DNA from: Candidatus Pelagibacter communis
GTDB taxonomy: Bacteria; Pseudomonadota; Alphaproteobacteria; Pelagibacterales; Pelagibacteraceae
NCBI RefSeq assembly: GCF_001180205.1
Contig: NZ_CVSU01000092.1
Coordinates: 1 to 63,205 of the forward strand
Direction of reading: 5' to 3'
Length of the DNA: 63,205 nt
Under the pieces are notes generated by a model. It had not been told where the DNA came from, made no database searches, and saw nothing but the letters and a program-made list of their open reading frames with translations. This document shows positions 1 to 63,205 of the stretch, piece after piece (positions within the stretch are counted from its first letter, which is position 1; each line of letters opens with the position of its first letter). The translations under genes were made by a program, and so were the position numbers.

Positions 1-121
1 TTTATCTGCATACATGATGGTAATTTATTTTGGTTTAGCTCTAGGTCAGCATTTACTTATATTAAGTAGAAGCATACCTAGAGCTAAACCAAAATAAATT
101 ACCATCATGTATGCAGATAAA
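1..121. repeat. 46-bp perfect inverted repeat at the window edge (fold-back artefact)
   Basis: Bases 1-46 are the exact reverse complement of 76-121, with a 29-base spacer (47-75). The right arm is ordinary coding sequence of the MFS gene; the left arm codes for the same residues on the opposite strand and then the window ends. A long perfect hairpin inside a coding gene at a contig edge is the usual product of template switching during amplification, so I read the left arm as artefact. Confidence 0.9.
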
Positions 122-513
122 AGTTGCCCTCTATTTTTATTAGTTGCTCTATCGTTTAACCAGCTCTCAGTAACCACATAACAACTAACTAAACTTATAC
201 CTGTTATAAATCTACTAATTGTCCACATAAGTGGATTTACATAAACAACTGCTACTAAAGCACTCAAAGATGCAAGCGAAGCGAATGCAGCAAATACTCT
301 TATATGACCAACTTTTGAAACAAAATTAGGAGTAGTTTTTGAGCCTATAAAGTAGCCAACATAATATCCTGACATAAAGATACCAGTTGTAAAAACACTA
401 AAATCTTCAAATACTGACCGAATACCCATTATTTGCATTTGCAATCCATGAGCAATCATCATTACTCCTATCCCAATAAATAGAGCCCAAGACTTTTTTA
501 CTTCTTTTTGCAT
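47..513 (-). CDS. MFS transporter, N-terminal half (truncated at window edge)
   Basis: This is the first half of a major facilitator superfamily permease, resembling the YcaD group of inner-membrane transporters. The start ATG is at 513; the protein shows successive hydrophobic helices and the stretch ESWLNDRATNKNRGQLL near residues 115-130, matching the YcaD-type loop followed by an AYMM helix. Sequence is trustworthy down to base 76. The apparent TGA stop at 46-48 straddles the fold-back junction, so it is created by the artefact and the real gene continues outside the window. It is the last visible gene of the minus-strand run, 31 bases after the EamA exporter. Substrate cannot be told. 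Confidence 0.8.
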
Positions 514-544
514 GTTTTTGTTTTTAAAATTTAATAATTCTTCG

Positions 545-3628: not shown

Positions 3629-3657
3629 GCGCTGTAAATAGTGATTTATATCTAAAT

Positions 3658-4215: not shown

Positions 4216-4218
4216 AAC

Positions 4219-5700: not shown

Positions 5701-6199
5701 TAGGAAATTCTTTTATCAGATAACTACTACCTTTTTCTAAATATGGAAAGACGTATGATTTGCCAAAATTTATTGGCCATTTATCGTAATTATAAACAAT
5801 ATGAACACCTGAAAAGATACATACAGAAATAATGTAAGCTCTTATGAAACCAAAAAAGAATCCAAACGTCGTATCTAAGCCACCGATTCCCGTATATCTG
5901 ACTGCTTTACTGATTCCTTTATTAATCAATAAAACCAAAAAGATAACAATTACAAATATTACTATTCCTAAACCAACATCGAGCACATACTCATTATCAA
6001 TTATGTCTTTTACATAGGGTTTAATTTTTGGAAATAGAATTAATGTAATTATGTAAGCCAGCAACCATTTAGCCATTGAGAGAATACTTAAAATGAAACC
6101 CTTTTTGTAACAACTTATCAATGAAAGGATTGTTAAAATTAAATAAATTAAATCAATTATTGATATTGCAATATAAAAATCTTTTATGATTTTTAACAT
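5654..6199 (-). CDS. cvpA: CvpA family membrane protein
   Basis: A 181-residue inner-membrane protein with four predicted hydrophobic helices; the first helical region, with SCYKKGFILSILSMAKWLLAY, matches the CvpA pattern in which a GF-rich loop follows the first helix, and GGLDTTFGFFFGFIRAYII near residue 105 is the second signature. CvpA is needed for colicin V production and bile or envelope stress tolerance in enterics, with no settled biochemical role. It starts by TAATG overlap with the RND gene stop and ends 47 bases inside purF. Confidence 0.88.
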   Translation of the reverse strand: MLKIIKDFYIAISIIDLIYLILTILSLISCYKKGFILSILSMAKWLLAYIITLILFPKIKPYVKDIIDNEYVLDVGLGIVIFVIVIFLVLLINKGISKAVRYTGIGGLDTTFGFFFGFIRAYIISVCIFSGVHIVYNYDKWPINFGKSYVFPYLEKGSSYLIKEFPNEKTYQDSKEKITDL

Positions 6200-8595
6200 T
6201 AAGATGATTTGCCAAAAGGTTTAATAATTAAAATTAATGAAGGCAAGAGAGTCAATACTGATATCATAGCTAACAACATAGCTAATCCTGTAAACACACC
6301 AAAATAAATTGTTGGGATAAACTTTGATAACACCAAAATAGAAAATCCAAAAACAATAGTAATTGAAGTGTTTAGTATAGCAACCCCAACAGTTGAATGA
6401 CAAGTTTTTAAAGTCTTGTTATAATCTTTGATTTTATTAAACTCTTCTTTAAATCTGTAAATATAGTGAATACTGTTATCTACAGCAATTCCTATTGTAA
6501 TTGCTGCAATAGTTATAGTCATCATATCCAAAGGTATTCCTAACGATCCAATTATTCCTAGTATAAAAAATGCAGCAATAAAATTTGGAACAACCCCAAT
6601 CAATGAAAGCTTAATATTTCTAAATAAGATTATGAACATTGAAAATATCCCAATCATAACCAATCCTAATGTTAAAATTTGAGATTTAAATAAGCTTTGT
6701 AATAAATTATTAAATAATATTAATACACCTGCCAGTTTATAATCTTTTTCTTCTAAACCAAATTTATCTTCAAGATCAAAATTAATTTTATTTATTAAAT
6801 CATTTCTTCTTAAATCTTCCTGCGAGTCTATAATTCTTAAACTAATTCGAGCCTCATTATCTTTGATAGAAAGATAAGGGTCAATGATTTCAGTTTTAAT
6901 ACTCTGAGGAATTTTAGAGTAAAGAACTCCCATTTCTAAAGTGCCTAGAGGTTTATTATTATTTAATTGAGTAGCAACCTCAATAATAGATGAAAAAGAT
7001 AGAACTTTGCCAATTTCAGGTAAGCTATCTAAGTAATTATGAACAGATGTAATTAGATCAATTTTATCTTTGGTAAACCAGTATTTTTCATCATCATTAT
7101 CTTCCTCATCGCCCCAATCCTCAAATTCATCATCTTCTTCAGATTTTTTAACCTTTTCTTTCTCAGGAAATTTTATAATAACCTCTAAAGGAGTGGTTCC
7201 ACCCAGCTCCTCATCTATAAGCTTCATACCCTTGTAAATTTCAGTATTCTTATCAAAGTAATTTATAAAACTATTTTCAACTTCAAGCTTACTTATTCCA
7301 AAAATGCTAAAAATTACAACTACTCCAGTTATTAAAAAAATAGAGTTTTTATTATTTATAGAAATTAAACTAAGTAAATTTGTAATTTTAGATTTCTGTT
7401 CTTTTTTAACTGAAATATTTTTTGTAGGTGCAAAGTTTAAAAGGGTAGGTAGCAAAGTAAATGTAATGATAAATGATGTAATCAATCCAAAGGTCATCAT
7501 CCAGCCAAAATCAATAACAGGTTTTATTTCACTAAAAATTAAAGATAAGAAGGCGAAAATTGTCGTTAGGACAGTATAAAGAATTGGCCAAAACATTTTT
7601 GAAGTGGTTAAGGAAATAATTTCAAAATTATTTTTTGATGGAAAATCTTTTTTAAGTTGAAGAAACCTTGTGCTCATATGAATATTCATTGCCATTGTTA
7701 AAATTAACATCAGTGCAATAAAATTTGATGAGATAACTGTAACCTTCCATCCTAGTAATCCAAGTAATCCAATCATAATTGTTACAGAAAAAAGACAACT
7801 ACTTATAGGAACCACAATCCAAAGAAGGTTTCTAAAAACAAACCATAAAGTAGCAATTATAAATAATAGAACTCCTAAACCAAAAACAATTATATCGCTT
7901 TTGATAAAGGTCATCATATCATCAGCAATCATTGGTATTCCTCCTAGATAAATCTTTCCAACATCACCATAACTTTGAATAACTTGTCTAATTTCTAAAA
8001 TATTCAGGTGGTTTTGTTTTTTGATTTCATCTTTAATTAGTTCAATTTCCTCTTTTGATTTATTTTCTATATCTTCTAATTTTTGAGATTGTTTAATGTT
8101 AACAATAATTCCACTGGTTTTACCATCCTTGCTAATGACAAAATTTCGAAAAACGGGACTATTTAAAATTTCTTTAAAACCTCGATCTCTATCAACATCT
8201 TCATCTTTTAATGTTTTGAAACTTTCTAGTCTTTCTTGAAGGGGAGCTTCTGAATTATTTAAAAGTGGAATGTCTAATAATGTAATTACACTATGGACCC
8301 AATTGAGGCTCTGAATTTTATATTTTAAACTTAATAAGTTGTTAATCGATGAGTCAGTTATCATTCCCTCATTAGGTGTATAGGTAAGAATTAAAAATTC
8401 TTTAGATCCATATCTTTCAGAGATTTCTTTCAAGTAAGCTAAATCTGGATCACCTTCTATTAATAGGGTTTCTGATGAAGCATCTAGCCTAAAATTTTTT
8501 GAAGAGTATCCAAAACTTAAAATAGCAATAATTAACAATACAAATATTGCTCTTGGATTTTTGAGGATAACGTTTTGATAAAAATGAGCTATCAT
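6199..8595 (-). CDS. RND-superfamily (MMPL-type) predicted exporter
   Basis: A 798-residue membrane protein with the RND layout: one N-terminal helix, a periplasmic domain (about residues 40-225), a five-to-six helix bundle (about 230-390), a second helix and periplasmic domain, and a second bundle ending in GIAVDNSIHYIYRFKEEF near residue 710, the signature of the COG1033 exporter group. These proteins move lipids or hydrophobic molecules using proton flux. An unusual run of Asp and Glu lies near residues 478-502 in the second periplasmic domain. It sits between dnaB and cvpA, where other alphaproteobacteria often have alr and radA. Confidence 0.85.
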   Translation of the reverse strand: MIAHFYQNVILKNPRAIFVLLIIAILSFGYSSKNFRLDASSETLLIEGDPDLAYLKEISERYGSKEFLILTYTPNEGMITDSSINNLLSLKYKIQSLNWVHSVITLLDIPLLNNSEAPLQERLESFKTLKDEDVDRDRGFKEILNSPVFRNFVISKDGKTSGIIVNIKQSQKLEDIENKSKEEIELIKDEIKKQNHLNILEIRQVIQSYGDVGKIYLGGIPMIADDMMTFIKSDIIVFGLGVLLFIIATLWFVFRNLLWIVVPISSCLFSVTIMIGLLGLLGWKVTVISSNFIALMLILTMAMNIHMSTRFLQLKKDFPSKNNFEIISLTTSKMFWPILYTVLTTIFAFLSLIFSEIKPVIDFGWMMTFGLITSFIITFTLLPTLLNFAPTKNISVKKEQKSKITNLLSLISINNKNSIFLITGVVVIFSIFGISKLEVENSFINYFDKNTEIYKGMKLIDEELGGTTPLEVIIKFPEKEKVKKSEEDDEFEDWGDEEDNDDEKYWFTKDKIDLITSVHNYLDSLPEIGKVLSFSSIIEVATQLNNNKPLGTLEMGVLYSKIPQSIKTEIIDPYLSIKDNEARISLRIIDSQEDLRRNDLINKINFDLEDKFGLEEKDYKLAGVLILFNNLLQSLFKSQILTLGLVMIGIFSMFIILFRNIKLSLIGVVPNFIAAFFILGIIGSLGIPLDMMTITIAAITIGIAVDNSIHYIYRFKEEFNKIKDYNKTLKTCHSTVGVAILNTSITIVFGFSILVLSKFIPTIYFGVFTGLAMLLAMISVLTLLPSLILIIKPFGKSS

Positions 8596-8616
8596 TCAAG
8601 CTCTTTATATTGGAAT

Positions 8617-10035
8617 TTAACTTAATTGAGTATCCTTAAATTTTGTAAATCTTTCCTCAAATTCGAGAGTTACATTACCAATAGGACCATGTCTTTGTTT
8701 TCCAATTATAATTTGAGCTAAATGTGCAACTTCATTCATTTTTGCTTGCCATTCAGCGTGTTCAACTGTTGCTTCTCTTGGCTCTTTTCTTTGCAAATAA
8801 TATCCTTCTCTATAAACAAACATTACAACATCGGCATCTTGTTCAATAGATCCAGATTCTCTTAAGTCTGCTAATTGCGGTTTATGATCATCTCTTTGTT
8901 CTACTTGTCTAGAGAGCTGCGAAAGAGCAACCACAGGAACAGAGAGTTCCTTGGCTATTGCCTTAAGTCCTTGAGTGATTTGTGAAATTTCTTGAACTCT
9001 TCCATCTTTATTGAATGTAGTTCCTTTCATTAATTGGATATAATCGACTACAATCATATCAAGGCCAAAAAGCCTTTTAATTCGTCTTGCTCTATTACTC
9101 AGAGCAGCAATACTTATTGCTGGAGTTTCATCAATATAAAGAGGTAACTCAGAAATATTTTTTGATGTTTCTAAAAACTTATCAAACTGATCGTCAGATA
9201 TTCTTCCTCTTCTAATATCATTAGAGCTAATTCTAGCTTGTTCAGATATAATTCTTGTAGATAATTGTTCTGAAGACATTTCAAGTGAAAAGAAGGCTAT
9301 GGATGATTTCCTACCAGTCTCTTGTAGTTTTTGAGCAGCATTAAATGCAATATTTGTTGCAAGTGAGGTTTTACCCATTGATGGTCGACCAGCGATAATA
9401 ATTAAATCTGATTGATGTAAACCACCAAGCTTATCATCTAAATCTCTTAAACCAGTTGGAACACCAACGATTCCCTCTTCATTCTTATAGGCAGCTGAAG
9501 CCATTTCAATTGTTTGTTTCATTGCTTCATCAAATTTTACTAAAGAGGAATTGAAAGAACCTTTTTCAGCTAAATCAAATAACAATTTCTCAGAACTTTC
9601 GATTATAGATTGTCCGTTAGTATCTAGATCATTCAATTTCGCACTATCAATAGTTTGTTCAGAAATCTTTATTAATTCTCTTCTTACAAACATATCGTAA
9701 ATTATTTTTGAGTATTCTATTGCTTGTCTAACTGATGTAGAAAATTTTGTAATTTTAACTAAATATTCTGGAACATTTATATCATCTTTTTCATCTTCAA
9801 AATAATTTTTTAAAGTTATTGGGTTAGCTAACATTCCTTTGTAGATAAGACTTTCAATTGCCTCAAATATTTTTTGATGCATAGGATCATAAAAGTTAAT
9901 ACTTGAAATTATTGTATTTATTTCATCAAAAATATCATTACTTACAAGAATAGATCCTATAACTGCTTGCTCTGCCTCAATGTTATTTGGCAACTCTTTA
10001 AATTGATCTTTAACTATACTTAAATTGTTTTCCAT
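8617..10035 (-). CDS. dnaB: replicative DNA helicase DnaB
   Basis: Hexameric helicase that unwinds DNA at the replication fork. The 472-residue protein has the N-terminal primase-interaction domain (PNNIEAEQAVIGSIL near residue 16), then the RecA-like domain with Walker A AGRPSMGKTS at about 215-224, Walker B in DMIVVDYIQLM near 320, and ALSQLSRQVEQR near 370. No intein interrupts it. It follows rplI after 68 bases, so it may be read from the ribosomal protein promoter, from its own, or both. Confidence 0.96.
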   Translation of the reverse strand: MENNLSIVKDQFKELPNNIEAEQAVIGSILVSNDIFDEINTIISSINFYDPMHQKIFEAIESLIYKGMLANPITLKNYFEDEKDDINVPEYLVKITKFSTSVRQAIEYSKIIYDMFVRRELIKISEQTIDSAKLNDLDTNGQSIIESSEKLLFDLAEKGSFNSSLVKFDEAMKQTIEMASAAYKNEEGIVGVPTGLRDLDDKLGGLHQSDLIIIAGRPSMGKTSLATNIAFNAAQKLQETGRKSSIAFFSLEMSSEQLSTRIISEQARISSNDIRRGRISDDQFDKFLETSKNISELPLYIDETPAISIAALSNRARRIKRLFGLDMIVVDYIQLMKGTTFNKDGRVQEISQITQGLKAIAKELSVPVVALSQLSRQVEQRDDHKPQLADLRESGSIEQDADVVMFVYREGYYLQRKEPREATVEHAEWQAKMNEVAHLAQIIIGKQRHGPIGNVTLEFEERFTKFKDTQLS

Positions 10036-10103
10036 GAAAATAAATTTACATGAAAAATAATTAAATCAAATTGTATATTTCTACTGGGGAAAAGAATGTA
10101 TAA

Positions 10104-10562
10104 TTATTGAATAGTATCGGCTGAAGAAACATTGATTATAATTTCAGCATCAACTTCTGAGTGTAAAGAAATTTTAACTTTAAATTTTCCTAAAGCTTTT
10201 ATTTCTTCAACTGGTTGTATTGTTGAAGGCTTTATATCAATTTTGTTTTCTTCTTGAATAAGTTTTGAAATTTCAGTTGGTTTAACTGAACCATATAATT
10301 CATTATTTTCTGTACTTAGTTTTTTTACAGAATACTCTTTACCATTAATTTGTTCAGCAATTTGAGAGGCTTCTTTTTTCTTCTCGTTATCTTTTTTAGA
10401 TAATTCAGCTTTAATTTTTTCAACTTCTTTTATATTTTCTTTTGATGCATAAAGAGCTTTTTTATTAGCAATTAGAAAGTTTCTAGCAAATCCTCTTTTT
10501 ACATCTATTACCTCACCAATAGACCCTATTCTCTTTACGTTTTCTAATAGTATTACTTTCAT
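10104..10562 (-). CDS. rplI: 50S ribosomal protein L9
   Basis: Large-subunit protein of 152 residues that binds 23S rRNA near the L1 stalk. The N-terminal rRNA-binding domain MKVILLENVKRIGSIGEVIDVKRGFARNFL is typical (shown here by its key GxxGxxxxVxxGFxRNFL pattern), followed by the long connecting helix rich in Lys and Glu (residues 45-75) and the small C-terminal domain. The start abuts rpsR exactly, and the order rpsF-rpsR-rplI-dnaB is the common bacterial one. Confidence 0.96.
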   Translation of the reverse strand: MKVILLENVKRIGSIGEVIDVKRGFARNFLIANKKALYASKENIKEVEKIKAELSKKDNEKKKEASQIAEQINGKEYSVKKLSTENNELYGSVKPTEISKLIQEENKIDIKPSTIQPVEEIKALGKFKVKISLHSEVDAEIIINVSSADTIQ

Positions 10563-10835
10563 TTATATTAATGCTAAGTTTCTTGCTCTTTTGATTGAAA
10601 GAGAAAGTTCTCTTTGTTTCTTTTGAGAAACATTTGTTATTCGTGAAGGTAGAATTTTACCATTTTCTGATACATATTTTTTTAAAAGTTTAATATTTTT
10701 ATAATCTACCTCTGGAGCACCTTTGACTGATAATGGGCAAGTTTTTTTAAATTTATATTTGTTAGGTTGAAAAATACTCAATTTTGCAAAGTTACTTTGT
10801 TTACCTTTTTTATTTCCGCTTTGTCTTTTTGGCAT
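10563..10835 (-). CDS. rpsR: 30S ribosomal protein S18
   Basis: Small-subunit protein of 90 residues that binds 16S rRNA with S6. The core FKKTCPLS ... [28 protein letters not shown] pattern (here with VDYKN) and the basic tail are diagnostic. It starts within the last base of rpsF and ends immediately before rplI. Some alphaproteobacteria carry a DUF2232 membrane protein between rpsR and rplI; none is present here. Confidence 0.96.
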
Positions 10836-11188
10836 TAGTTTTTAGTACTTTCTTTTTTTTCGCTATCATCTTTTTTTCCAAAATAGCTTGTTTCTAAATC
10901 AAATTTTTTAACTCTGACTGTCAGATATCTCAGTAATTTTTTATCTATAGCTTCATTTTTTTCTAATTCATGGATAACATTACCTTTGCCTTTTATTTTA
11001 AAGTGTATGTAGCTACCCTTTTTATTCTTTTTAATTAGATAAGATAAATTTAGTAATCCCCAATTTTCAGTTTTAACAACTTCGCCGTCATTTTTTTCAA
11101 CAATTTTAGAATATTTTTCAGTAAGTTGCTTTAATTCACTCGGAGAAGTATCTTGTCTAGCTATAATAGTATGTTCGTATAAATTCAT
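10835..11188 (-). CDS. rpsF: 30S ribosomal protein S6
   Basis: Small-subunit protein of 117 residues, first gene of the rpsF-rpsR-rplI-dnaB set. It begins [18 protein letters not shown] and shows [21 protein letters not shown] near residues 44-64, the S6 signature, ending in a Lys/Glu-rich tail. The upstream region holds an exact TATAAT hexamer on this strand (11221-11226) and is shared with divergent fabD. Confidence 0.96.
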
Positions 11189-11220
11189 TTAAGTTCTTTA
11201 ATAAAAAGTGAGGATATACT

Positions 11221-11249
11221 ATTATAAAAGTTCAATTACAATAGTTAAA
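11221..11249 (-). promoter_or_regulatory. candidate sigma70-type promoter of rpsF
   Basis: On the minus strand a perfect TATAAT (11221-11226) is preceded by 17 bases and a weak TTTAAC -35 (11244-11249). It lies 33 bases before the rpsF start in the only intergenic space of this divergent pair. In AT-rich DNA a -10 match alone is weak evidence. Confidence 0.4.
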
Positions 11250-11275
11250 AAGGCAAAAATATTAGTTTTTTTTAT

Positions 11276-12202
11276 ATGTTTTCAGTAATTTTTCCAGGTC
11301 AGGGATCTCAAATAGTGGGAATGGGAAAAGAGATTTATGATAAATTTAATATAGTAAAAGACCTTTTTAAACAGGCAGATGACACGCTAAATTTTTCTAT
11401 TTCTAAGCTTATTCTAGAAGGACCAAAAGAAGAGCTAGATTTAACAGCCAATACACAGCCAGCAATATATCTAATAAGCTATTCAATATTTAAATTAGCA
11501 AAAAATGAATTTAACTTAGATTTAAATAAAGCGAAGTACTTTGCTGGACATTCTTTAGGTGAATATTCAGCTTTGTCATGCGCAGGATATTTAGATTTTT
11601 CAGATACTTTAAAAATACTAAGAATTAGAGGAGGTGCAATGCAAAACGCTGTGCCTAAAGGACAGGGAGGGATGGTTGCGGCATTAGGCTCAACAGTTGA
11701 CGTGATTGAAAAAATTTTGACAGAAAATAAAGAAAATTTAAAAGCACAAATTGCAAATGACAATTCTGATGGTCAAATTGTTTTGAGTGGAAAAACTGAA
11801 GATTTAGAAAAATTGATTCAAATTTTAAAGGATAATTCAATTAAAAATATTAAACTTCCTGTAAGTGCACCCTTTCACTGTGAACTAATGAATAATGCTA
11901 CAAAAATTATGACAGAAGAGTTAAATAAACTTAATTTTAAAAATGGTCAAAATAAATTGATTTCAAATGTAACTGCCAATGAAATCAAAGACCCAGATGA
12001 ACTAAAAAATCTATTAATTAAGCAAATAGAGAATAGAGTTAGATGGAGAGAAAGTGTAATAAATATGATAGAAAATGATGTAGATCATTTTATAGAAATT
12101 GGACCTGGGAAAGTTTTGTCAGGTTTGGTAAAAAGAATTAATAGAAATGTTAAAATTGACACACTTAATTCTCAAAGTGATATTGAAGGTCTTAAAATAT
12201 GA
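11276..12202 (+). CDS. fabD: malonyl-CoA:ACP transacylase
   Basis: Moves malonyl from CoA to acyl carrier protein to supply fatty acid elongation. The 308-residue protein has the GQGSQ motif at 8-12, the nucleophile Ser93 in GHSLGEYS, and the catalytic His in SAPFHCELM near residue 200. It overlaps fabG by 4 bases (ATGA). It is the first gene of fabD-fabG-acpP-gmk and is divergent from rpsF. Confidence 0.95.
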   Translation: MFSVIFPGQGSQIVGMGKEIYDKFNIVKDLFKQADDTLNFSISKLILEGPKEELDLTANTQPAIYLISYSIFKLAKNEFNLDLNKAKYFAGHSLGEYSALSCAGYLDFSDTLKILRIRGGAMQNAVPKGQGGMVAALGSTVDVIEKILTENKENLKAQIANDNSDGQIVLSGKTEDLEKLIQILKDNSIKNIKLPVSAPFHCELMNNATKIMTEELNKLNFKNGQNKLISNVTANEIKDPDELKNLLIKQIENRVRWRESVINMIENDVDHFIEIGPGKVLSGLVKRINRNVKIDTLNSQSDIEGLKI

Positions 12203-35179: not shown

Positions 35180-37516
35180 ATGAATAAATTTTTAAGAAAT
35201 ATCTTTGTTTTAATTACTTCTTTTATTCTATTATCAGCAATTTCGATAATAAGTGTTTTATGGACTTATTCTAATGATTTACCAGATTATAAATTTCTTA
35301 AAAGTTACAAACCTCCTGTTTCCAGCAAAGTTTACTCTGGTAATGGTGATTTGGTGGCAGATTTTTCAAAGGAAAAAAGAGTATTTGTTCCATTTAATTC
35401 AATTCCAAAAAATGTAATTAACGCATTTTTATCTGCTGAAGATAAAAATTTTTTCAAACATCCAGGTGTTGATGCTAAAGGTGTTATTAGAGCTGTAATA
35501 AATAATATTTCAAATATTTTATCATCTAAAAGGTTAGAGGGAGCATCCACAATTACTCAACAGGTAGCAAAAAACTTTTTACTAACAAATGAAGTAAGTT
35601 TAAATAGGAAAATTAAGGAAGCAATTCTAGCTTTTAGAATAGAGAGAGCTTTATCTAAAGAAAGAATTCTAGAACTTTATCTAAATCAAATTTATCTTGG
35701 AAGTGGAGCATATGGAGTAGCTGCTGCAAGCCTAGAGTATTTTGATAAATCTATTAAAGATTTAAATTATTCAGAAGCTGCTTTATTAGCAGCTTTGCCA
35801 AAAGCACCCAGCAGATATAATCCCTATAGAGATCCAGATATAGCAAAATTTAGAAGAAATTTAGTTTTAAAAAATTTGTTAGATAATAATTATTTAACTT
35901 CAGAATGGTATGAGAAACTTACAAAAGAGGAAATAATTTTAAAAAAAAATAAAAAAATTTATTTAGAAGATGCTCAATATTTTATTGAAGATGTGAGAAA
36001 AAGTGTAATTGAAACTTTGAGCTATGATAAAGTTTACAAACAAGGTTTTAATATCAATACTCCAATAGATTTAAGTTTACAAACAATCGCAACAAAATCA
36101 CTTAGAAATGGATTAATAGCATATGACAAAAGAAAGGGATGGAGAGGACCACTTACTAACAAGATTTATAATTCAGAATGGAAAAAAGGTTTAGGAAAGT
36201 ATAAATTAGAAAATTCAATTAATTGGAAATTAGCAATAGTCAAAAAGATAAATAAATTTTCAGCAGAAATAGAAACAGAAGATAATATCGAAGGTGTTAT
36301 TGAATATCAGAGTATTTCTTGGACAAAAAAAGAATTTAATAAATTATTAAAACCTGGTGATATTATTTATGTTAAAAAACTTAAAGAAAATATTTTTAAC
36401 TTACAACAATTACCAAAGGTAAATGGTGGAATTGTTGTGATGGATCCATTTACTGGAAGAGTTTTAGCACTAAGTGGTGGTTTTAGTTTTAAACAAAGTG
36501 AATTTAACAGAGCAACTCAAGCTGAAAGACAGCCTGGATCAGCTTTTAAACCATTTGTTTATGCATTAGCTTTAGAGAATAAATTTACACCAACATCATT
36601 AGTTCTAGACGCACCACTGGTTTTAGATCAGGGGGATGATTTAAAAATGTGGAAACCAGAAAATTATGGAAAAAAATTTTACGGACCTTCGACTTTAAGA
36701 GTTGGCTTGGAGAAATCTAGAAATTTAATGACAGTAAGAATAGCCCAAAATCTTGGTGTAGAAAAAATAGTTGATTTTTCAAAAGCATTAAAAATTTATG
36801 ATAATCCAGAAGAACTTTTATCCATATCTTTGGGATCTGCTGAAACAACTTTATTAAAACTTACATCTGCTTATTCAGTTTTTGTTAATGGAGGAAAACT
36901 TGTTGAACCAATACTGATTGATAGAATTCAGGACAGTGAAGGAAATACTATTTTTAATAATGATAAAAGAAAATGTATTAATTGTGATCAAATTTCTTAT
37001 TTAACAAACGATTATCCAGAGATTAAAAATAACTATACTCAAATTTTTTCTCCAGAAACAGCTTTTCAAATAACATCAATTTTAGAAGGAGTTGTTCAAA
37101 GAGGTACAGCTAAAAAACTAAAAGATTTAAATTTAAATATTGCAGGTAAAACTGGAACAACAAATAAAAATACAGATACTTGGTTTATAGGTTTTACCTC
37201 AAATTTACTAGTTGGTGTTTATGTTGGTTCAGATAACCCAACTCCATTAGGAAAATATGAAACAGGATCTAAAACGGCTTTGCCAATATTCAAAAGTTTT
37301 ATAAGTGATTCTATTAAAAAAAATGATGCAAGACCATTTAAGGCTGCTAAAGGTACTTTGATGATGGTTGTTGACCCTTTAACAGGTCAAAAAGCAAAAT
37401 TTAACTCAAAGAATACTATTATTGAGGTTTTTAAAAAAGAAAATGTGATTGATGGAAAAGTACTTTATACAAATTCAGATAGATTAGATTCAAATAATAT
37501 ATTAAAGTTTTACTAA
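35180..37516 (+). CDS. mrcA: penicillin-binding protein 1A (bifunctional)
   Basis: Inner-membrane peptidoglycan synthase with glycosyltransferase and transpeptidase activity. The 778-residue protein has an N-terminal membrane anchor (about 7-28), the glycosyltransferase motifs EDKNFFKHPGVD near 90 and ASTITQQVAKNF near 121, and the transpeptidase triad: Ser453 in GSAFKPF, SRN near 513, and KTGTTN near 660. A TATAAT at 35165-35170 lies only 9 bases before the ATG, hinting at a very short or absent leader. The last base of its stop is the first base of the prfB ATG. Confidence 0.94.
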   Translation: MNKFLRNIFVLITSFILLSAISIISVLWTYSNDLPDYKFLKSYKPPVSSKVYSGNGDLVADFSKEKRVFVPFNSIPKNVINAFLSAEDKNFFKHPGVDAKGVIRAVINNISNILSSKRLEGASTITQQVAKNFLLTNEVSLNRKIKEAILAFRIERALSKERILELYLNQIYLGSGAYGVAAASLEYFDKSIKDLNYSEAALLAALPKAPSRYNPYRDPDIAKFRRNLVLKNLLDNNYLTSEWYEKLTKEEIILKKNKKIYLEDAQYFIEDVRKSVIETLSYDKVYKQGFNINTPIDLSLQTIATKSLRNGLIAYDKRKGWRGPLTNKIYNSEWKKGLGKYKLENSINWKLAIVKKINKFSAEIETEDNIEGVIEYQSISWTKKEFNKLLKPGDIIYVKKLKENIFNLQQLPKVNGGIVVMDPFTGRVLALSGGFSFKQSEFNRATQAERQPGSAFKPFVYALALENKFTPTSLVLDAPLVLDQGDDLKMWKPENYGKKFYGPSTLRVGLEKSRNLMTVRIAQNLGVEKIVDFSKALKIYDNPEELLSISLGSAETTLLKLTSAYSVFVNGGKLVEPILIDRIQDSEGNTIFNNDKRKCINCDQISYLTNDYPEIKNNYTQIFSPETAFQITSILEGVVQRGTAKKLKDLNLNIAGKTGTTNKNTDTWFIGFTSNLLVGVYVGSDNPTPLGKYETGSKTALPIFKSFISDSIKKNDARPFKAAKGTLMMVVDPLTGQKAKFNSKNTIIEVFKKENVIDGKVLYTNSDRLDSNNILKFY

Positions 37517-38617
37517 TGGATAATAATTATCAAAATATTAAAGAAGAAGTTGAAAAGATAAATCAAAAAATACAGGAGTATCTTTGAAAAAAACAATATC
37601 CATTCAAAACTGCAATCTTTAAATTCACAAATGCTGAGTGCCGATTTTTGGCAAGATAAAAATAACTCTCAAAAAGTAATTAAAGAAAAGAAATTTTATG
37701 AAGATTTAACTAACTCTTTAAATAATAATGTTGAAAAACTTAAAGATCTAGATGATTTAAATCAACTGGCGTTTGAAGAAGAAAATTTACAGGTTCAAAA
37801 AGAAGTTCTTCAAAATATTAAAGATTTAAGAAATGAAGTTAAAAAAAATGAAATTAAATGTTTTTTATCTAATGAAGCAGACCCTTTAAATTGTTACATA
37901 GAAATACATGCTGGTGCCGGAGGTACAGAAAGTCAAGATTGGGCAGATATGTTAAGAAGAATGTATTTAAAATGGTCTGATAAAAAAAATTTTAAGTCAA
38001 ATTTGATTAGTGAACATAGAGGTGACGAGGCTGGTATAAAGTCTGCAACAATTAAAATAGATGGTGACTATGTTTTTGGATGGTTGAAAAAAGAGTCGGG
38101 AATACACAGGTTAGTTAGAATCTCTCCATTTGATTCCGGGGCAAGAAGACATACAAGTTTTGCAAGTGTTTGGATTTATCCAGTTGTAGATGAAAATATA
38201 AATATAGAGATTTTAGAAAAAGATTTAAGAATAGATACTTATCGTTCCAGTGGAGCAGGCGGTCAGCACGTTAACACTACTGATAGCGCAGTTAGAATAA
38301 CACACATTCCATCAAAAATTGTTGTCCAATGTCAAAATGAGAGATCTCAACATAAAAACAAAGAAACATGCATGAATATGTTGAAAGCAAGATTATATGA
38401 TTATGAAATTAAAAAAAGAGAGGAAGAAAATCAAAATGTTGAAAGTTCTAAATCTGAAATAGGGTGGGGGCATCAAATTAGATCTTATGTTCTTCAACCT
38501 TACAGACTTGTAAAAGACAATAGAACTAATTTTGAAAGTACTAGTCCTGATAAAGTATTAGATGGTGATATCGACGAATTTTTAGAACAATCGCTTTATA
38601 AACTAAATGAAAAATAA
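37516..38617 (+). CDS. prfB: peptide chain release factor 2 (programmed +1 frameshift)
   Basis: Terminates translation at UGA and UAA. Frame one runs from ATG 37516 for 23 codons to an in-frame TGA at 37585-37587; skipping T37585 continues in the second frame from GAA 37586 to 38617, giving 366 residues, the normal RF2 length. The slippery CTT TGA is preceded by AGGAG (37574-37578) with three bases between, as in E. coli. SPF (203-205) is the stop-recognition tripeptide and GGQ (248-250) the catalytic motif. Taking the internal ATG at 37631 would lose the N terminus. The base after TGA is A, not the usual C. Confidence 0.95.
37574..37587 (+). promoter_or_regulatory. prfB recoding signal (internal SD, CTT TGA)
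   Basis: AGGAG (37574-37578), TAT, then CTT TGA (37582-37587) is the classic RF2 autoregulatory frameshift site: the internal Shine-Dalgarno pushes ribosomes +1 when RF2 is scarce and UGA decoding is slow. Confidence 0.93.
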
Positions 38618-52199: not shown

Positions 52200-52682
52200 G
52201 TGAATTCAATATTAAACAAAGAGCCAGTTTTAAGAGCAGAAAAATCGCTAAAACAATTCAACCCAGATCTTAAAGTGGTTGTTTTGGAGCAAACTGCTAG
52301 AACAGCTAACGATGCAGCTACAGCTTTAGGTTGCAAAGTAGGGGCCATTGTCAAAAGTTTACTTTTTAAAGCAGGAGATAGTTTTGTTTTATGTCTAGTT
52401 TCTGGAGACAAAAGGTGTTCATTAAATAAATTAAAAAAAATTTTAGATGAAAAAGATGTTTCAATGGCGAACCCAGTAGAAGTTAAAAAAATTACTGGAT
52501 ATACAATAGGTGGAGTATCTCCAACTGGACATTTAACGAAAATAAAAATTTTTATTGATGAAACTTTAAATAGGTTTTCTTCTATTTTTGCGGCCGCAGG
52601 TCATCCTAATGCAGTTTTCGAAATAAATTTTGAAGATTTAATTGCATTAACTTCTGGTGAGATAAAAGAGATAACAGAATGA
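52200..52682 (+). CDS. YbaK/ProX-type aminoacyl-tRNA deacylase
   Basis: A 160-residue protein of the YbaK/EbsC/ProRS-INS fold, likely hydrolysing mischarged aminoacyl-tRNA. It has ARTANDAATALGCKVGAIVKSLLF near residues 32-55 with the conserved Lys, LVSGDKRCSLNKL near 66 and TGYTIGGVSPTGH near 98. Start is GTG 52200; no better codon exists. Bases 52508-52569 of this gene recur inverted at the right end of the window, which I attribute to a chimera, and this copy is the intact one. The EamA gene overlaps its stop by 4 bases. Confidence 0.87.
   Translation: MNSILNKEPVLRAEKSLKQFNPDLKVVVLEQTARTANDAATALGCKVGAIVKSLLFKAGDSFVLCLVSGDKRCSLNKLKKILDEKDVSMANPVEVKKITGYTIGGVSPTGHLTKIKIFIDETLNRFSSIFAAAGHPNAVFEINFEDLIALTSGEIKEITE
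52508..52569 (+). repeat. 62-bp segment repeated inverted at the window end
   Basis: This part of the YbaK gene is identical, in reverse complement, to bases 63144-63205. Here it is in frame within an intact gene, so this is the genuine copy. Confidence 0.95.
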
Positions 52683-53566
52683 GACAACCAAAATTAATTG
52701 ATTACTTTTTATTAACAATATTGTCTCTTATATGGGCTTCTGCGTTTTTTAATATTAAAATAGCAACTTATTCTTTTGGCCCAGTTACAATTGCTTTTCT
52801 GAGAGTATTTTTTGGAGCAATTCCAGTTTTACTTTTATGTTATTTTAAAAATATTAAAGTTGAAGCTTTTTCTAAAGATTGGCATTGGTTTGCAATGATC
52901 GGGTTTATTAATTTAGTAGCACCATTTTTCTTAATCGCTTATGGAGTTAAATCAGTTCAAAGTAATTTGGCAGCTATATTAATGTCAACTACTCCTTTAA
53001 GCTCCACAGTACTCGCTCATTTTTATACAACAAATGAAAAATTCAATTTTGTTAAAACTATTGGAATTTTGATTGGGTTTTCTGGAATAGTTTATTTATT
53101 TTCTGATAATCTTTTAATAGATGAAAATAATTTTATCTCAGCTTTATTGATATTACTTGGATCAACCTGTTATGTTGTAGGCGGAGTGCTAACATTAAAA
53201 ATAAGTAAGAAAAAAAATGAAAATGTAACTGGATCTATTTTAATTTGGGCAATAATTATTTTGTTACCATTAACATTTTTAATTGAACAACCATTTCAAA
53301 CTATGCCAAGAACAGACTCTTTAATATCAGCTATTTATTTAGGAATTGTTCCAACAGGTATTGCTTGGTTGTTACGTTTCAAAATTTTGACAACAAATGG
53401 ATTAATTTTTCAATCTCAAGTTTCTTATTTGATACCAATTTTTGGAATTATTTTAGGTTACATATTTTTAAAAGAATTAATTACTACAAAAGTTTTAATT
53501 GCTTTAATTGCTGTTTGCATCGGTATTTACTTTGTTAAAAAAGGTGGAAACCATAAAATTATATAA
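52679..53566 (+). CDS. EamA/DMT-family exporter
   Basis: A 295-residue ten-helix protein with two EamA repeats: LSLIWASAFFNIKIA near residue 15, AILMSTTPLSSTVLAHFYTTNEK near 100, and the second-repeat SQVSYLIPIFGIILGYIFLKE near 248. It is coupled to the YbaK gene by ATGA overlap and runs 8 bases into convergent TauE. Substrate unknown; metabolite export is the usual family role. Confidence 0.85.
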   Translation: MRQPKLIDYFLLTILSLIWASAFFNIKIATYSFGPVTIAFLRVFFGAIPVLLLCYFKNIKVEAFSKDWHWFAMIGFINLVAPFFLIAYGVKSVQSNLAAILMSTTPLSSTVLAHFYTTNEKFNFVKTIGILIGFSGIVYLFSDNLLIDENNFISALLILLGSTCYVVGGVLTLKISKKKNENVTGSILIWAIIILLPLTFLIEQPFQTMPRTDSLISAIYLGIVPTGIAWLLRFKILTTNGLIFQSQVSYLIPIFGIILGYIFLKELITTKVLIALIAVCIGIYFVKKGGNHKII

Positions 53567-54305
53567 ATATTCTAATTCCTATTCTCATAGCTACAAAAAT
53601 TACTAATAAAGATGTTAGTAAAGCTAGGGTTTTATTTGATAAAAATTTTATATTTAAAAAACTTCCAATTTGCCCACCAATTAATACTGTAATAAAAAGA
53701 GGCCAATATTTTAAAAATTCATACAAAACAATATCTTTAGTTAATTGTCCTGCTACACCAAAAATAGAGTTAATTAATATAAATAGAGATGCGGTACTGG
53801 TTATATGTTTTGGATAACCAGCTTTAAGAAGAAATAAAATTGGACTTAAAAATATTCCTCCACCTATTCCTACTAATCCAGATATAAACCCGATAATAGA
53901 ACCAATAAAAATAGAAACAAATCTTGAAACTTGTTTAATTCCAATCTCATCTTCATTGAAGGATTTACTCTCTAATAATAAAAAAATTCCCGCGATTAAT
54001 AAAATAAAGAACAGCAAAATCTCAAATAAATCTTTATCAATTGAAATAGAAGCTCCAAGAAAAGCAAATGGAACAGATCCAATTAAATAAGGTGTGAGTA
54101 AATTTATATTAATGTTTTTTGTTCTTAAAAAATTTATTGAATTACCAGTTACAACAATAATATTACAAATTAATGCTATAATTGGAAAAATATAGAAGGG
54201 AACATCCCAAATTAACATCAAAGCGAGGTAAGTAGATCCGCCCCCAAAACCAATACTGGAATATAATATTGCAGTTATAAAAAAAAATATTGTAAGTATA
54301 ATCAT
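53559..54305 (-). CDS. TauE/SafE family permease
   Basis: A 248-residue inner-membrane protein of the TauE/SafE (DUF81) family with duplicated four-helix halves: SSIGFGGGSTYLALMLIWDVP near residue 16 and GFISGLVGIGGGIFLSPILFL near 143 are the paired Gly-rich signatures. Family members move sulfite, sulfoacetate or related anions. Divergent from moaB by 14 bases. The neighbourhood includes a methionine sulfoxide reductase, but no direct link is shown. Confidence 0.87.
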   Translation of the reverse strand: MIILTIFFFITAILYSSIGFGGGSTYLALMLIWDVPFYIFPIIALICNIIVVTGNSINFLRTKNININLLTPYLIGSVPFAFLGASISIDKDLFEILLFFILLIAGIFLLLESKSFNEDEIGIKQVSRFVSIFIGSIIGFISGLVGIGGGIFLSPILFLLKAGYPKHITSTASLFILINSIFGVAGQLTKDIVLYEFLKYWPLFITVLIGGQIGSFLNIKFLSNKTLALLTSLLVIFVAMRIGIRIFI

Positions 54306-57810: not shown

Positions 57811-58821
57811 TTATCCGCCAGTAGTTGATAAATTTTTAGTTAAACCAGTTTCACCAAGTTCTAAGTAGTGAGATTCTTTTTTAAATTTCATTTGTCCCAT
57901 TATAAGATCTTGCAATTCTTCTATTTGATCATCTTTTTGTAATAGATGTCTTATACTTATTCCAGTATTGCCAAATAGACACAATCTTAAATCTCCTCTT
58001 GAAGTAATTCTTAATCGATTACAGCTTCTACAAAAATCTTTAGAGTAGGGTGCTATAATTCCAAATTTTCCTTTGTATTCCGGATTGATATAATTTAGTG
58101 ACGGTCCCGCATCCCTACCTAGAGTTTGGTAAATCCAATTATTTTTATTTAGGTAATCTTTGAAGATTTTTGAAGATACATGGTATTTTTTAAAATAATT
58201 CAAGTTATCACTTGTTTGCATTAATTCTATATATCTAAAACTAACTTTGTTCTCTTTTATAAACTTTGCCCAAGACTCAAAATCTTTGTTTGAAGCATTT
58301 ATTCCATTTAAAAGAACTGCATTAATTTTAATATTTCCAAAATTTAAATCTTGTAGGATATTAATCCCTTTTAAAATCTCTGGTAATCGATCATGACCTG
58401 TAACATTTTTAAATGTATTTCGATCCAAACTATCAATACTAATATTAATGCCATTTAAGCCACTATCCACTAACATCTTTGCTTTTTTATCTAAATGATA
58501 ACCGTTTGTGGTAATTACAACTTTTTTTATTTCAGCTTCATTCTTTAAGATCTTGATTATTTCAAAAAAATCCTTTCTTACTGTTGGTTCTCCTCCAGTA
58601 AGTCTTATTTTATTTACACCTAATTTTGAAAAAACTTTTGCAAGACGTTTTATTTCATCAAGATGAAGAAATTTTCTATTGTCACTCTTATCAATTTGAT
58701 AGCCATTAGGTAAACAATATCCACATTTAAAGTTACATACATCAGTAATTGAAAGCCTTATATATGGAAAAGTTCTACCAAAACTATCTCTTAAAATTTT
58801 CATTTTAGTTAAAGATATCAT
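57811..58821 (-). CDS. moaA: GTP 3',8-cyclase
   Basis: Radical-SAM enzyme starting molybdenum cofactor synthesis from GTP. The 336-residue protein has the SAM-cluster motif CNFKCGYC (Cys29, Cys33, Cys36), IRLTGGEPTVRKDF near 76, the second cluster cysteines in FCRSCNRLR near 265 with a third in LCLFGNTG, and the C-terminal GG needed for activity. First gene of moaA-moaC-moaD-moaE-msrP-msrQ-DUF1244. Confidence 0.95.
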   Translation of the reverse strand: MISLTKMKILRDSFGRTFPYIRLSITDVCNFKCGYCLPNGYQIDKSDNRKFLHLDEIKRLAKVFSKLGVNKIRLTGGEPTVRKDFFEIIKILKNEAEIKKVVITTNGYHLDKKAKMLVDSGLNGINISIDSLDRNTFKNVTGHDRLPEILKGINILQDLNFGNIKINAVLLNGINASNKDFESWAKFIKENKVSFRYIELMQTSDNLNYFKKYHVSSKIFKDYLNKNNWIYQTLGRDAGPSLNYINPEYKGKFGIIAPYSKDFCRSCNRLRITSRGDLRLCLFGNTGISIRHLLQKDDQIEELQDLIMGQMKFKKESHYLELGETGLTKNLSTTGG

Positions 58822-58895
58822 AATTAATAAAATTAATCATGATTGAATTAACTTAAAAATTATGAATAAATACTTAAAAACAATATTAACTCAAG

Positions 58896-59972
58896 ATGGC
58901 AGAGATAAATATTTCGAATATAAATAAATCTTTTGGGTCTACACATGTAATCAAAGATGTATCTCTAGAAATAAAAAGCGAATCTTTCACTGTATTTGTT
59001 GGGCCAAGTGGTTGTGGTAAGTCAACGATGCTAAGAATGATTGCTGGTTTAGAAGAGGTTAACTCAGGAACAATTTCAATTGATGGACAAGTTATTAATG
59101 ATCTTCCACCATCAGAAAGAAATATAGCAATGGTCTTTCAATCATATGCTTTGTATCCACACATGACAGTGTTCGATAACATGGCTTTTGGTTTAGAAAT
59201 TGAAAAAAAATCTAAAGAGGAAATTACAGAGAGAGTTATGGAGGCTGCTAAAATTCTTCAAATTGAGGAATACTTGGAGAGAAAACCAAAACAATTATCA
59301 GGAGGACAAAGACAAAGAGTTGCAATTGGTAGAGCAATTACAAGAAAGCCAAAAGTATTTTTATTTGATGAACCTTTATCTAATTTAGATGCAGCTTTAA
59401 GAGTTCAGATGAGAGTAGAGCTTGCTAAATTACATGATCAATTAAATGCAACGATGATTTATGTTACTCACGATCAAACTGAAGCAATGACACTTGCAGA
59501 TGACATAGTTGTATTAGATCATGGAATAGTATCTCAAAAAGGATCACCTTTAAAATTATACAATGAACCAGAAAATTTATTTGTTGGTGGTTTTATTGGT
59601 TCACCAAAGATGAACTTTATCAATTCTAAAGTTATAAGCTCTAATAGCTCTGGAACCGAAGTTGAAATTTCAGGACAAGGAAAAATTATTGTTCCAAAAA
59701 CTTCAGATAAAGTTTCACCTGGCGATAGTGTAAAGATTGGTATCAGACCTGAACACATATTAATTAATACTGGTGAAAAATGCTGGAATAGCAAGGTGTT
59801 CGTAATTGAAAAATTGGGTTCATCTACATTTCTATATTTAGAGAAAGATGGAGAACCATTAGTTGTTCAAACAGATGGTGAGAATTCAGCTAATATTGGA
59901 GACAATTTAAGCTTAAGTTTTGATTTAAATAAATGTCATTTATTTGACGAAAATAATTTAGCTTTTAAATAA
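58896..59972 (+). CDS. sugar ABC transporter ATPase (MsmK/UgpC/MalK type)
   Basis: Energises carbohydrate import. The 358-residue protein has Walker A GPSGCGKSTMLR near residue 37, LSGGQRQRVAIGRA near 134, Walker B VFLFDEPLSNLDA near 154, THDQTEA near 190 and a C-terminal TOBE/MOP regulatory domain (about 235-355). It sits divergent from moaA and tail to tail with the GH1 gene, 39 bases away; with the MalG-type permease in the opposite operon it probably forms one importer. Substrate unknown; beta- or alpha-glycosides fit the neighbours. Confidence 0.9.
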   Translation: MAEINISNINKSFGSTHVIKDVSLEIKSESFTVFVGPSGCGKSTMLRMIAGLEEVNSGTISIDGQVINDLPPSERNIAMVFQSYALYPHMTVFDNMAFGLEIEKKSKEEITERVMEAAKILQIEEYLERKPKQLSGGQRQRVAIGRAITRKPKVFLFDEPLSNLDAALRVQMRVELAKLHDQLNATMIYVTHDQTEAMTLADDIVVLDHGIVSQKGSPLKLYNEPENLFVGGFIGSPKMNFINSKVISSNSSGTEVEISGQGKIIVPKTSDKVSPGDSVKIGIRPEHILINTGEKCWNSKVFVIEKLGSSTFLYLEKDGEPLVVQTDGENSANIGDNLSLSFDLNKCHLFDENNLAFK

Positions 59973-60011
59973 TTTATCTTTTTAAGTAAGTTTTTATTTA
60001 GATTTAATAAA

Positions 60012-61373
60012 TTAAAAATCAAAAGGAATTGAATTTTGTTCTACAAGCTTTTTGAAAAAATAGTACGATTTTTTAGGTGTTCTTTTTAAAGTTTTAAAAT
60101 CAACATGCACTATTCCAAATCTCTTTTCAAATCCTAACGCCCATTCAAAATTATCCATGAATGTCCATGCAAAGTAGCTTTTAACTTTAGCTCCATCATC
60201 AATAGATTTTTTTACAGCACTTAAATATTTTTTAAAATAATCAATACGATCGGTGTCGTTTATTTCTCCATTTTTTTCTATTAAATCTGGATATGCCGCA
60301 CCATTTTCAGTTAGATAAATATTTGGATTACCATAATTATTTTTTAAATCCATAATTTGATCATAATAAGCATCTGGAACAATTTCCCATCCCATAAGAG
60401 TTAACTTTGCATCTTTGCCATCAAGACCAAAAGGCAATTCATCATTGAATGCTCCTCTTGCTTTAAGTAAACTTTTATTATCAGCTTTAATTCTAATATG
60501 TTGATAATGATTTAATCCAATAAAATCGTTTTTTTGAAAAATATTTTTCATATCATCTTGTTGAATATGTTTTGAGACATCATCAATTAGTAATTCAGGA
60601 TATCTTCCAAGATACATAGGGTCGGCAAATGATCTATTCCAATAAGTATCGAATAATTTAGTGGCATGAAGATCTTCACTTGATTTTGTGGCAGGAATAC
60701 ATGGCGCCATATTTAAAGTGCAGCCAATTTTTATATTATTATTTAAAGATTTCATTGCTTGAAAAGCTTTGCCATGTGCAACATTAACATTATGTATTGA
60801 TGCAAAGTATTTTTCTAAATCTTTGTATCCTGGAGCCATGTAACCATCTACATATCCATGAATAGTAAAAACTTGTGGTTCATTAAATGTGATAAAATGA
60901 TTACATCTATCTCCAAAATTTTTAACAATAGCCTCTGAATAATCTGAAAATATATTTGTTATGTCTCTATTTGCCCAACCCCCTTTATCTTGCAGTGATT
61001 GAGGAAGGTCCCAATGATATAAAGTTATGAAAGGCTCAATATTTTTTTCTAAACACTTGTCTATCAACCTTGAATAAAAATCTACTCCTTTAGGGTTTAT
61101 TTTACCTATCCCTTCAGGGATAATCCTGGTCCACGCTAAAGAAAATCTATATGAATTTAAATTTATATTAGCCATCAGCTCAATATCTTCTTCGTACCTA
61201 TGATAATGGTCTACAGCAGTATCTCCGTTTTCATTATTTTTAACTTTTCCAGGTGTATGTGTAAAAGTATCCCAAATACTTTTACTTTTTCCATCTTTAT
61301 CTGTAGCACCCTCTATTTGGTAACTTGCTGTAGCCGTTCCCCAAAAAAAATCATTAGGAAATTTATTTTTCAT
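60012..61373 (-). CDS. family GH1 beta-glucosidase
   Basis: Glycoside hydrolase of 453 residues. It begins PNDFFWGTATASYQIEG, has the acid/base Glu in TFNEPQVF near residue 167 and the nucleophile Glu in YLTENGAAY near 352, and ends with FAWTFMDNFEWALGF near 408, all GH1 signatures. No signal peptide, so it acts in the cytoplasm on imported glycosides. It follows the GH4 gene by one base and is the last gene of that operon. Confidence 0.93.
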   Translation of the reverse strand: MKNKFPNDFFWGTATASYQIEGATDKDGKSKSIWDTFTHTPGKVKNNENGDTAVDHYHRYEEDIELMANINLNSYRFSLAWTRIIPEGIGKINPKGVDFYSRLIDKCLEKNIEPFITLYHWDLPQSLQDKGGWANRDITNIFSDYSEAIVKNFGDRCNHFITFNEPQVFTIHGYVDGYMAPGYKDLEKYFASIHNVNVAHGKAFQAMKSLNNNIKIGCTLNMAPCIPATKSSEDLHATKLFDTYWNRSFADPMYLGRYPELLIDDVSKHIQQDDMKNIFQKNDFIGLNHYQHIRIKADNKSLLKARGAFNDELPFGLDGKDAKLTLMGWEIVPDAYYDQIMDLKNNYGNPNIYLTENGAAYPDLIEKNGEINDTDRIDYFKKYLSAVKKSIDDGAKVKSYFAWTFMDNFEWALGFEKRFGIVHVDFKTLKRTPKKSYYFFKKLVEQNSIPFDF

Positions 61374-61374
61374 G

Positions 61375-62703
61375 TTAGTTAAATTCTGGTATCCAATTTT
61401 TATGAGCTTTTAATAACTCATCTACCATAGAACTAATTTGATCTAAACTTAATAAAGAAGAAGTAAGTGGATCTAACATAGCCGCATGATAAATGGTCTC
61501 TTTTTTTTTTGTTCTTAAAGCTTCAACAGTTAATTGTTGAACATTTATATTAGTTTTCATTAGGTTTGCTAAATGCATAGGTAAATCCCCAACTTTTTGA
61601 GGGTTAATTCCCTCATTATTTATTTTACATGGTACTTCAACACAACAATCATCTGGTAAATTAGAAATTAACTTGTTATTCAAAACATTTCCATTAACTG
61701 TGTCTTCTTTTCCGTCAACAATTGATACAATTATCCGTGAAGCATACTCTAAAGATTTCTCACAAACAAATTTTTCTCTATCTAATAAATTTTGCTCTTG
61801 TTGATCCCACTCTTTAATTTGTTTTTTGCACCTTCGAATATATTCATTAATTGGAATATTGAATTCACTTAATAAGTCCTCTCTGTTATTTTTAATAAAC
61901 CAAGGAGTATATTCTGCAAAGTGTTCGGATGACTCAGTAACAAAATATCCAAATTTTTCTAAAACTTTATATCTAACTTCGTTCGTGCATCCATCCCAAT
62001 TGGTACCAAATGTTTTTTCTTTTCCAGCTTTAAAAATTTTAGGATAAAGATTTTCTTTTTTTCCATCAGGATTAATTTTTTCAAACTTAGTATAAAAAGA
62101 CATATGATTGATACCTGAACATTCATAACTAATGTTTTTTATATCCTCGCCAATATCTTTTGCTAAATCTTCAGCAGTTCCTTGTACAGAATGACAAAGT
62201 CCAACATATTTAAGCTCAGGTGCAAATTTAGACAATGCTAAACAATTAATTGCCATAGGATTAACATACTGCAACATAGTTGCGCTTGGACAAACTTCAT
62301 TCATATTTTTTGCAACTGACAATAAAGCGGGGACAGTTCTCAATCCTCTCATGATTCCACCTATTCCTAAAGTGTCACCAATAGTTTGTTTTAGTCCATA
62401 CTTTGCTGGAATTTCAAAATCAATAACTGTAGAGGGCTCATAACCTCCTATTTGAAACATTAATATTACAAAGTCAGCTCCACTAAGTGCTTTTTTTTGA
62501 TTTTTTTCGATTATAATCTTTGGATTTGCACCTATTGATTTTGAAACTTTTTCTGCAACCAAATTTGAGGTTTTTAATCTTCTATCATCAATATCTTGCA
62601 AAACTATTTCACAGTTACTGAAATTTTTTTCAAGCAGAATATCTGTAAGTATATTTTTCATAAATACAGTGCTTCCTGCTCCAATAAAAGTAACTTTAAT
62701 CAT
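61375..62703 (-). CDS. family GH4 alpha-glucosidase/alpha-galactosidase
   Basis: NAD- and metal-dependent glycosidase of about 443 residues. The NAD fold KVTFIGAGSTVFMKN opens the protein; GLCHSVQGTAEDL near 175 supplies the metal-binding Cys and His, and QYVNPMAINCLAL near 145 is also typical of the MelA group. A longer reading frame starts at 62724, but ATG 62703 places the nucleotide fold at residue 3 and lies one base after the permease stop. Exact substrate (glucoside, galactoside or galacturonide) cannot be told. Confidence 0.92.
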   Translation of the reverse strand: MIKVTFIGAGSTVFMKNILTDILLEKNFSNCEIVLQDIDDRRLKTSNLVAEKVSKSIGANPKIIIEKNQKKALSGADFVILMFQIGGYEPSTVIDFEIPAKYGLKQTIGDTLGIGGIMRGLRTVPALLSVAKNMNEVCPSATMLQYVNPMAINCLALSKFAPELKYVGLCHSVQGTAEDLAKDIGEDIKNISYECSGINHMSFYTKFEKINPDGKKENLYPKIFKAGKEKTFGTNWDGCTNEVRYKVLEKFGYFVTESSEHFAEYTPWFIKNNREDLLSEFNIPINEYIRRCKKQIKEWDQQEQNLLDREKFVCEKSLEYASRIIVSIVDGKEDTVNGNVLNNKLISNLPDDCCVEVPCKINNEGINPQKVGDLPMHLANLMKTNINVQQLTVEALRTKKKETIYHAAMLDPLTSSLLSLDQISSMVDELLKAHKNWIPEFN

Positions 62704-62704
62704 A

Positions 62705-63143
62705 CTAACCTTTAGTTGCTCCAAGAGTTAATCCAGCAATAAAATGTTTTTGCATTAAAAAAAACATAATAACAGGAGGTATCGCAGCAACAATAGATCC
62801 AGTTGATAGCAAGTGATAAGCTGTAATCCATTGACCATTTAATGATTTTAGTCCAGCAGTAATTGGCATTGCATGATCACCTTGTATTAAGACGGTAGCC
62901 CAAAAATAATCGTTCCATATAAATGTAAAAATTAAAACACACAGTGCTGCTATAGCTGGTCTAGTCAAAGGTAATATTATCTTCCAAAATATTCTAAATT
63001 CAGATGCTCCATCCATTCTCGCAGCCTCGATAAGTTCTTGAGGTAACGCTTTAATAAAATTTCTCATAAAAAGTGTGCAAAAACCTGTTTGAAAAGCTAC
63101 ATGAAATAAAACCAATCCTGTAATAGTGTTGTAGAGACCAATC
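62705..63143 (-). CDS. carbohydrate ABC transporter permease (MalG type), C-terminal part
   Basis: Inner-membrane subunit of a sugar importer; about 146 residues remain, roughly the C-terminal half. The ATPase-contact loop ELIEAARMDGASEFRIFWKIILP is intact, and FIWNDYFWATVLI and a final transmembrane stretch with GLTLGATKG follow. Coding frame is readable up to about 63143 (KIGLYNTITGL), where the inverted YbaK copy begins, so the 5' part is missing through the chimera, not by mutation. First visible gene of permease-GH4-GH1. Confidence 0.88.
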
Positions 63144-63205
63144 TTAAAGTTTCATCAATAAAAATTTTTATTTTCGTTAAATGTCCAGTTGGAGATACTC
63201 CACCT
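63144..63205 (-). repeat. inverted 62-bp copy of 52508-52569 (chimeric window end)
   Basis: These last 62 bases are the exact reverse complement of 52508-52569, an internal part of the YbaK gene 10.6 kb away. They interrupt the permease gene. The fragment is too short and too perfect to be a functional duplicate; it looks like an amplification or assembly join. Confidence 0.92.

Follow-up and report, generated by a model that had tools for sequence, protein, structure and literature searches.

Does the right end of this contig record a naturally truncated sugar permease gene bordered by an inverted repeat, or a join that arose in the laboratory? The window, that is, the whole stretch of DNA that was analysed, is the entire contig C92 of the draft genome G000 and is 63,205 bp long, so that the tail discussed here lies at a true contig end and not at a cut made by the window. 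The draft itself comprises 975,921 bases in 127 contigs, with 72.41% completeness and an estimated contamination of 3.75%. The following features raise the question:

63144..63205, plus strand: 62-nt terminal tail, an exact inverted copy of part of ybaK, not at the permease in 21/21 relatives examined
52508..52569, minus strand: native location of the tail source, within an intact open reading frame
52200..52682, plus strand: intact YbaK-type aminoacyl-tRNA editing gene, 160 aa (Pfam tRNA_edit PF04073, E 8.6e-32)
62705..63148, minus strand: C-terminal half of a MalG/UgpE-type sugar ABC permease (Pfam BPD_transp_1), cut by the join

The perfect inverted copy described in the original prediction was recovered at the same coordinates: positions 63144-63205 are the reverse complement of 52508-52569 over 62 nt, with 0 mismatches, and the arms lie 10,574 nt apart. 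The match is limited on one side by a mismatch at base 63143 and on the other by the contig end at 63205. From base composition, about 9e-24 inverted matches of 62 nt are expected, and the only exact inverted matches of at least 22 nt in the window are this tail and one at the left edge (1-46 versus 76-121). When aligned to the related genome G368, the tail falls on the ybaK locus, on the opposite strand. As TTAAA (63144-63148) is common to both sources, the foreign portion of the tail spans approximately 63149-63205.

On the ybaK side, the gene scores 81.9 bits against the NCBIfam model YbaK_EbsC, under its cut-off of 153.25. On the other side, the permease frame, read on the minus strand from 62705 upward, is open for only 148 codons, and the tail occupies the expected site of the N-terminal half of a binding-protein-dependent permease. 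The best NCBIfam matches of the fragment are GlcU and UgpE, both under the curated cut-offs. A full permease of 283 codons is present in a close relative (L156, AG-913-L03), which bears out the proposed mid-frame cut. The gene order there is a probable substrate-binding protein, a MalF-type permease, the 283-aa MalG-type permease, GH4, GH1, and an ATPase on the other strand, the first two names coming from a reading of the open reading frames rather than a profile scan. When L030:1-1100 was used as a query for the missing half in G000, a single weak match was obtained, to C92 itself, and the contigs reading N may be unsearchable; the missing half may reside in contigs under about 3 kb, or may not have been recovered. 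No relatives of the permease fragment were found in viral_contigs.

The permease fragment belongs to a sugar cassette (58750-63148; MalK-type ATPase, GH1, GH4, permease) that matches G368 at 97-100% identity in each 250-bp bin, against 68-92% in the adjoining 53.6-58.7 kb. A similar identity step is seen near 58,860 in G423 (99% versus 80%), as at the cassette edge in G368. GH4 is also confined to few genomes of the genus (see below), and the whole looks like a recently exchanged accessory cassette.

Comparison with relatives shows what lies naturally beyond 63148. Relatives were found via the adjoining GH4 gene (61375-62724; match at E <= 1e-60), which has a match in 10 of the 399 genus genomes, one of them G000. 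The nine others align with the window to 63148 and then share one common continuation, unlike that of the window. A second set was taken from the best 80 of 567 loci in the named collection, of which the 19 at >=93% identity (L138-L156) were examined and the other 61, at 51-69% identity, were left out of the junction comparison; all 19 continue into natural permease sequence. Their titles name uncultured Pelagibacteraceae or, for L143, Candidatus Pelagibacter ubique SCGC AAA795-J21, and the AG- genomes among the relatives are single-cell genomes. As seven of the nine GH4-set contigs are also among these 19, the two sets amount to 21 distinct genomes. The join is missing in 21/21, each following the window to about 63148 and then proceeding through the remainder of an ordinary permease gene. 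The same junction in independent genomes, which would have spoken against an artefact, was thus seen in 0/21 of those examined. Beyond the junction itself, C92 and G368:C1 are collinear between about base 52 and base 63148, with no other interior rearrangement; coverage is poorer at 15.7-21.0 kb, where the alignment is patchy and 71-75% alike where aligned.

Two further observations arose from these alignments. G368 holds about 1.5 kb of extra sequence at about 53514-53573, between the first and second genes that follow ybaK. In G197:C17 (L037, about 1506-1513), a segment resembling 36419-37930 runs straight into one resembling 62184-63148, with 8 nt covered by both alignments; this junction could be a chimera in direct orientation or else a genuine deletion or transfer.

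An exact 62-nt inverted pair within one contig has the look expected of a real inverted repeat, such as might flank an invertible DNA segment, serve as a recombination site, or terminate a mobile element. Such elements should carry the repeat at both places, whereas 21/21 relatives have no copy at the permease, and an invertible segment or mobile-element repeat was rejected on this ground. The copy moreover stops exactly at the contig end, eight further pairs of similar build lie at contig ends (see below), and the parental order is kept in G368. A real repeat is, therefore, extremely unlikely. Equally little credence can be given to a genuine inverted duplication or template-switch rearrangement, joining permease and ybaK, in the chromosome of this one cell.

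The crossover point itself is informative:

63144..63148, no strand assigned: TTAAA, common to the natural permease sequence and inverted ybaK

The joined sources share exactly these 5 nt at the crossover, and the chance of a shared run of at least 5 nt in this composition is about 0.011. The C at 63143 (T in the nine GH4-set loci) was considered as a junction error and rejected, since L139 also has C, making it a natural allele. Among the other chimeric ends of G000, C121 shares 6 nt and C90 6-7 nt at the junction, while that of C110 sits in a locally repeated region.

Such a short shared run also bears on a mis-join made by the assembler alone, with no chimeric molecule behind it. Contigs of this draft do share ordinary end-to-end overlaps of 60-62 nt, as if the assembler cuts at shared words, but the natural sequence and ybaK have only 5 nt in common, far short of the overlap of about 60 nt seen in this assembly. 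The assembler-only explanation was accordingly rejected, with hardly any probability left to it. With only TTAAA common at the junction, the join was probably carried by a physical DNA molecule.

The length of the tail is a separate matter. Among 18 rows with a match reaching a contig end, 10 measure 59-63 nt. They include ordinary end-to-end overlaps (C4/C90, 62 nt; C127/C24, 61 nt; C9/C117, 60 nt) as well as matches that lie inverted within a different contig (C112/C21, 62 nt; C94/C107, 63 nt). The remaining eight fit no single value, ranging from 30 to 68 nt, plus a 121-nt self-match at the left edge. Because terminal overlaps, ordinary ones included, cluster at 59-63 nt, the length of 62 is set by the assembly and not by the chimera.

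Some contigs of the draft have peculiarities of their own. Positions 1-401 of C94 (L103) have matches at the end of C25, in both orientations, and also inverted ones inside C107; this contig start is apparently a multiple chimera. In C21 (L080), the stretch 1-12000 has a G+C content of 35%, against 27% for C92, and the contig could be either foreign or contaminating, or reflect natural variation. C76 (L061) carries a direct repeat (2251-2352 and 2757-2858) of 102 nt, 90% identical.

The left edge of C92 is the same kind of artefact as the right edge:

1..46, plus strand: left-edge tail, an exact inverted copy of 76-121, forming a hairpin with a 29-nt loop
76..121, minus strand: native location of the left-edge tail source, from the inverted match and the comparison with G368

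Here, the natural sequence of G368 departs from C92 before about base 52, and comparison with that natural sequence gave no clear shared run at the junction.

The recurrence of such tails was assessed across the draft. Stretches of 86 of the 127 contigs were taken, of which 31 were readable, whereas N was read for the remaining 55, each shorter than 3 kb; 10 of the 31 were represented by their first and last 12 kb only, with each end compared with its own piece, so that remoter joins are missed there. An exact inverted 24-mer copy within the same contig was found at 10 of 62 real ends (both ends of C92 and of C103, and one end each of C4, C52, C110, C19, C121, and C90), which form nine pairs, as the two ends of C103 match each other. 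No direct copy within the contig was found at any of the 62 real ends, and none of 26 ends created by artificial cuts had an inverted copy, while 20,000 random internal positions gave 8 inverted and 8 direct copies. Five of the nine pairs span less than 3 kb and four span 10.4-11.4 kb. The first 2,000 bases of C52 are natural in 4/4 relatives (for one relative, starting at base 25), and the chimeric side of that pair is, therefore, the other end of the contig.

C121 deserves particular attention, being the next G000 piece past the permease in the G368 order, where it starts about 5.6 kb further on. Its end facing C92 carries an inverted tail as well, of 59 nt from about 11.4 kb inward. The sequence between C92 and C121 was not found in the searchable part of G000, and the contigs reading N may be unsearchable. 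Chimeric ends flanking a poorly amplified gap would be expected from drop-out during multiple displacement amplification (MDA).

Tails of this kind were found at 0 of 20 5' contig ends in four relatives and at 0 of 9 readable ends in G423 (13 of 20 stretches reading N), which makes a weak control given possible end trimming. The other genomes compared presumably went through an SCGC pipeline. One published pipeline of that centre trims 100 bp off each contig end (PMC5519541), and such trimming may account for part of the absence of tails in these genomes.

Overall, the right edge of C92 is very probably an in-vitro chimera of phi29 MDA, retained by the assembler as a contig end; the source DNA would thus have been amplified by MDA. 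The displaced 3' end of a permease copy, with TTAAA as its last bases, would have annealed to a matching site on a displaced strand in ybaK, about 10.6 kb off, and, presumably after a switch of strand, its extension there would have produced the inverted join. With genuine coverage past the permease missing, the assembler would have followed the chimeric reads and come to a halt after roughly one more overlap length (near 60 nt), at ybaK sequence presumably already assembled.

Library preparation, by ligation or PCR template switching, is an unlikely source of the chimera, though a somewhat likelier explanation than a real repeat or an assembler error. It would likewise yield physical chimeric molecules, and a 2026 report describes inverted-repeat chimeras arising from ligation preparation for nanopore sequencing (PMC13141652). 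Random ligation would, however, link unrelated sites in both orientations, and the exclusively inverted joins within contigs (nine pairs and 0 direct) with their short shared junctions suit MDA better.

Published data on MDA frame this comparison. In one study, 406 of 475 chimeras (85%) were inverted, 337 of the 475 being inverted joins under 10 kb and 69 inverted joins over 10 kb; junction complementarity extended up to 21 nt, and complementary bases were present in 93.5% of the inverted joins under 10 kb and in 34.8% of those over 10 kb (PMC1855051). Another gives overlaps that fall chiefly between 5 and 8 nt and peak at 6 nt, and distances of 0 to 5,000 nt (PMC4595205). Against these figures, the C92 join is inverted, shares 5 nt at its junction, and occurs in none of the 21 relatives. 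MDA junctions typically carry a complementary stretch of 2-21 nt, and MDA spacing is usually under 10 kb, while that of C92 is 10,574 nt; this counts against MDA, being at the far end, as do the four pairs clustered at 10.4-11.4 kb, the left-edge junction without clear microhomology, and the lack of such tails at contig ends of other genomes, for which trimming may be partly responsible. The reading of the join as an MDA product, as the original prediction had it, thus holds for the inverted orientation, the 5-nt junction, the nine inverted pairs to 0 direct ones, and the 21/21 relatives; the spacing falls slightly above the under-10-kb class that predominates in PMC1855051.

For annotation, the tail at the right edge is an ordinary amplification chimera and not biology. 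The warning that the permease could be misread as naturally truncated, or the repeat as a recombination site, was justified; flagging the tail averts two false calls, one of a sugar permease taken as truncated and one of a 62-nt inverted repeat taken as a recombination site. Both edges of C92 should be trimmed (63149-63205 and about 1-51). More generally, the G000 draft retains untrimmed chimeric contig ends (the 10 of 62 readable ends in inverted pairs), and any truncated gene or terminal repeat lying at one of these ends should, therefore, be distrusted.

Two known systems can be set beside this contig end. In the terminal word overlaps of graph-assembled contigs, exactly 60-62 nt are common to the ends of two contigs, as in several cases here, whereas the C92 stretch sits inverted inside the same contig and is reached via a 5-nt junction. 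The inverted chimeras of phi29 MDA, as presented by Lasken and Stockwell 2007 (PMC1855051) and Tu et al. 2015 (PMC4595205), resemble it in the inverted join within one region, the short shared junction, and the genome-wide recurrence. The C92 join differs from those published in its spacing of 10.6 kb, longer than most, and in being known here as contig tails only and not as reads.
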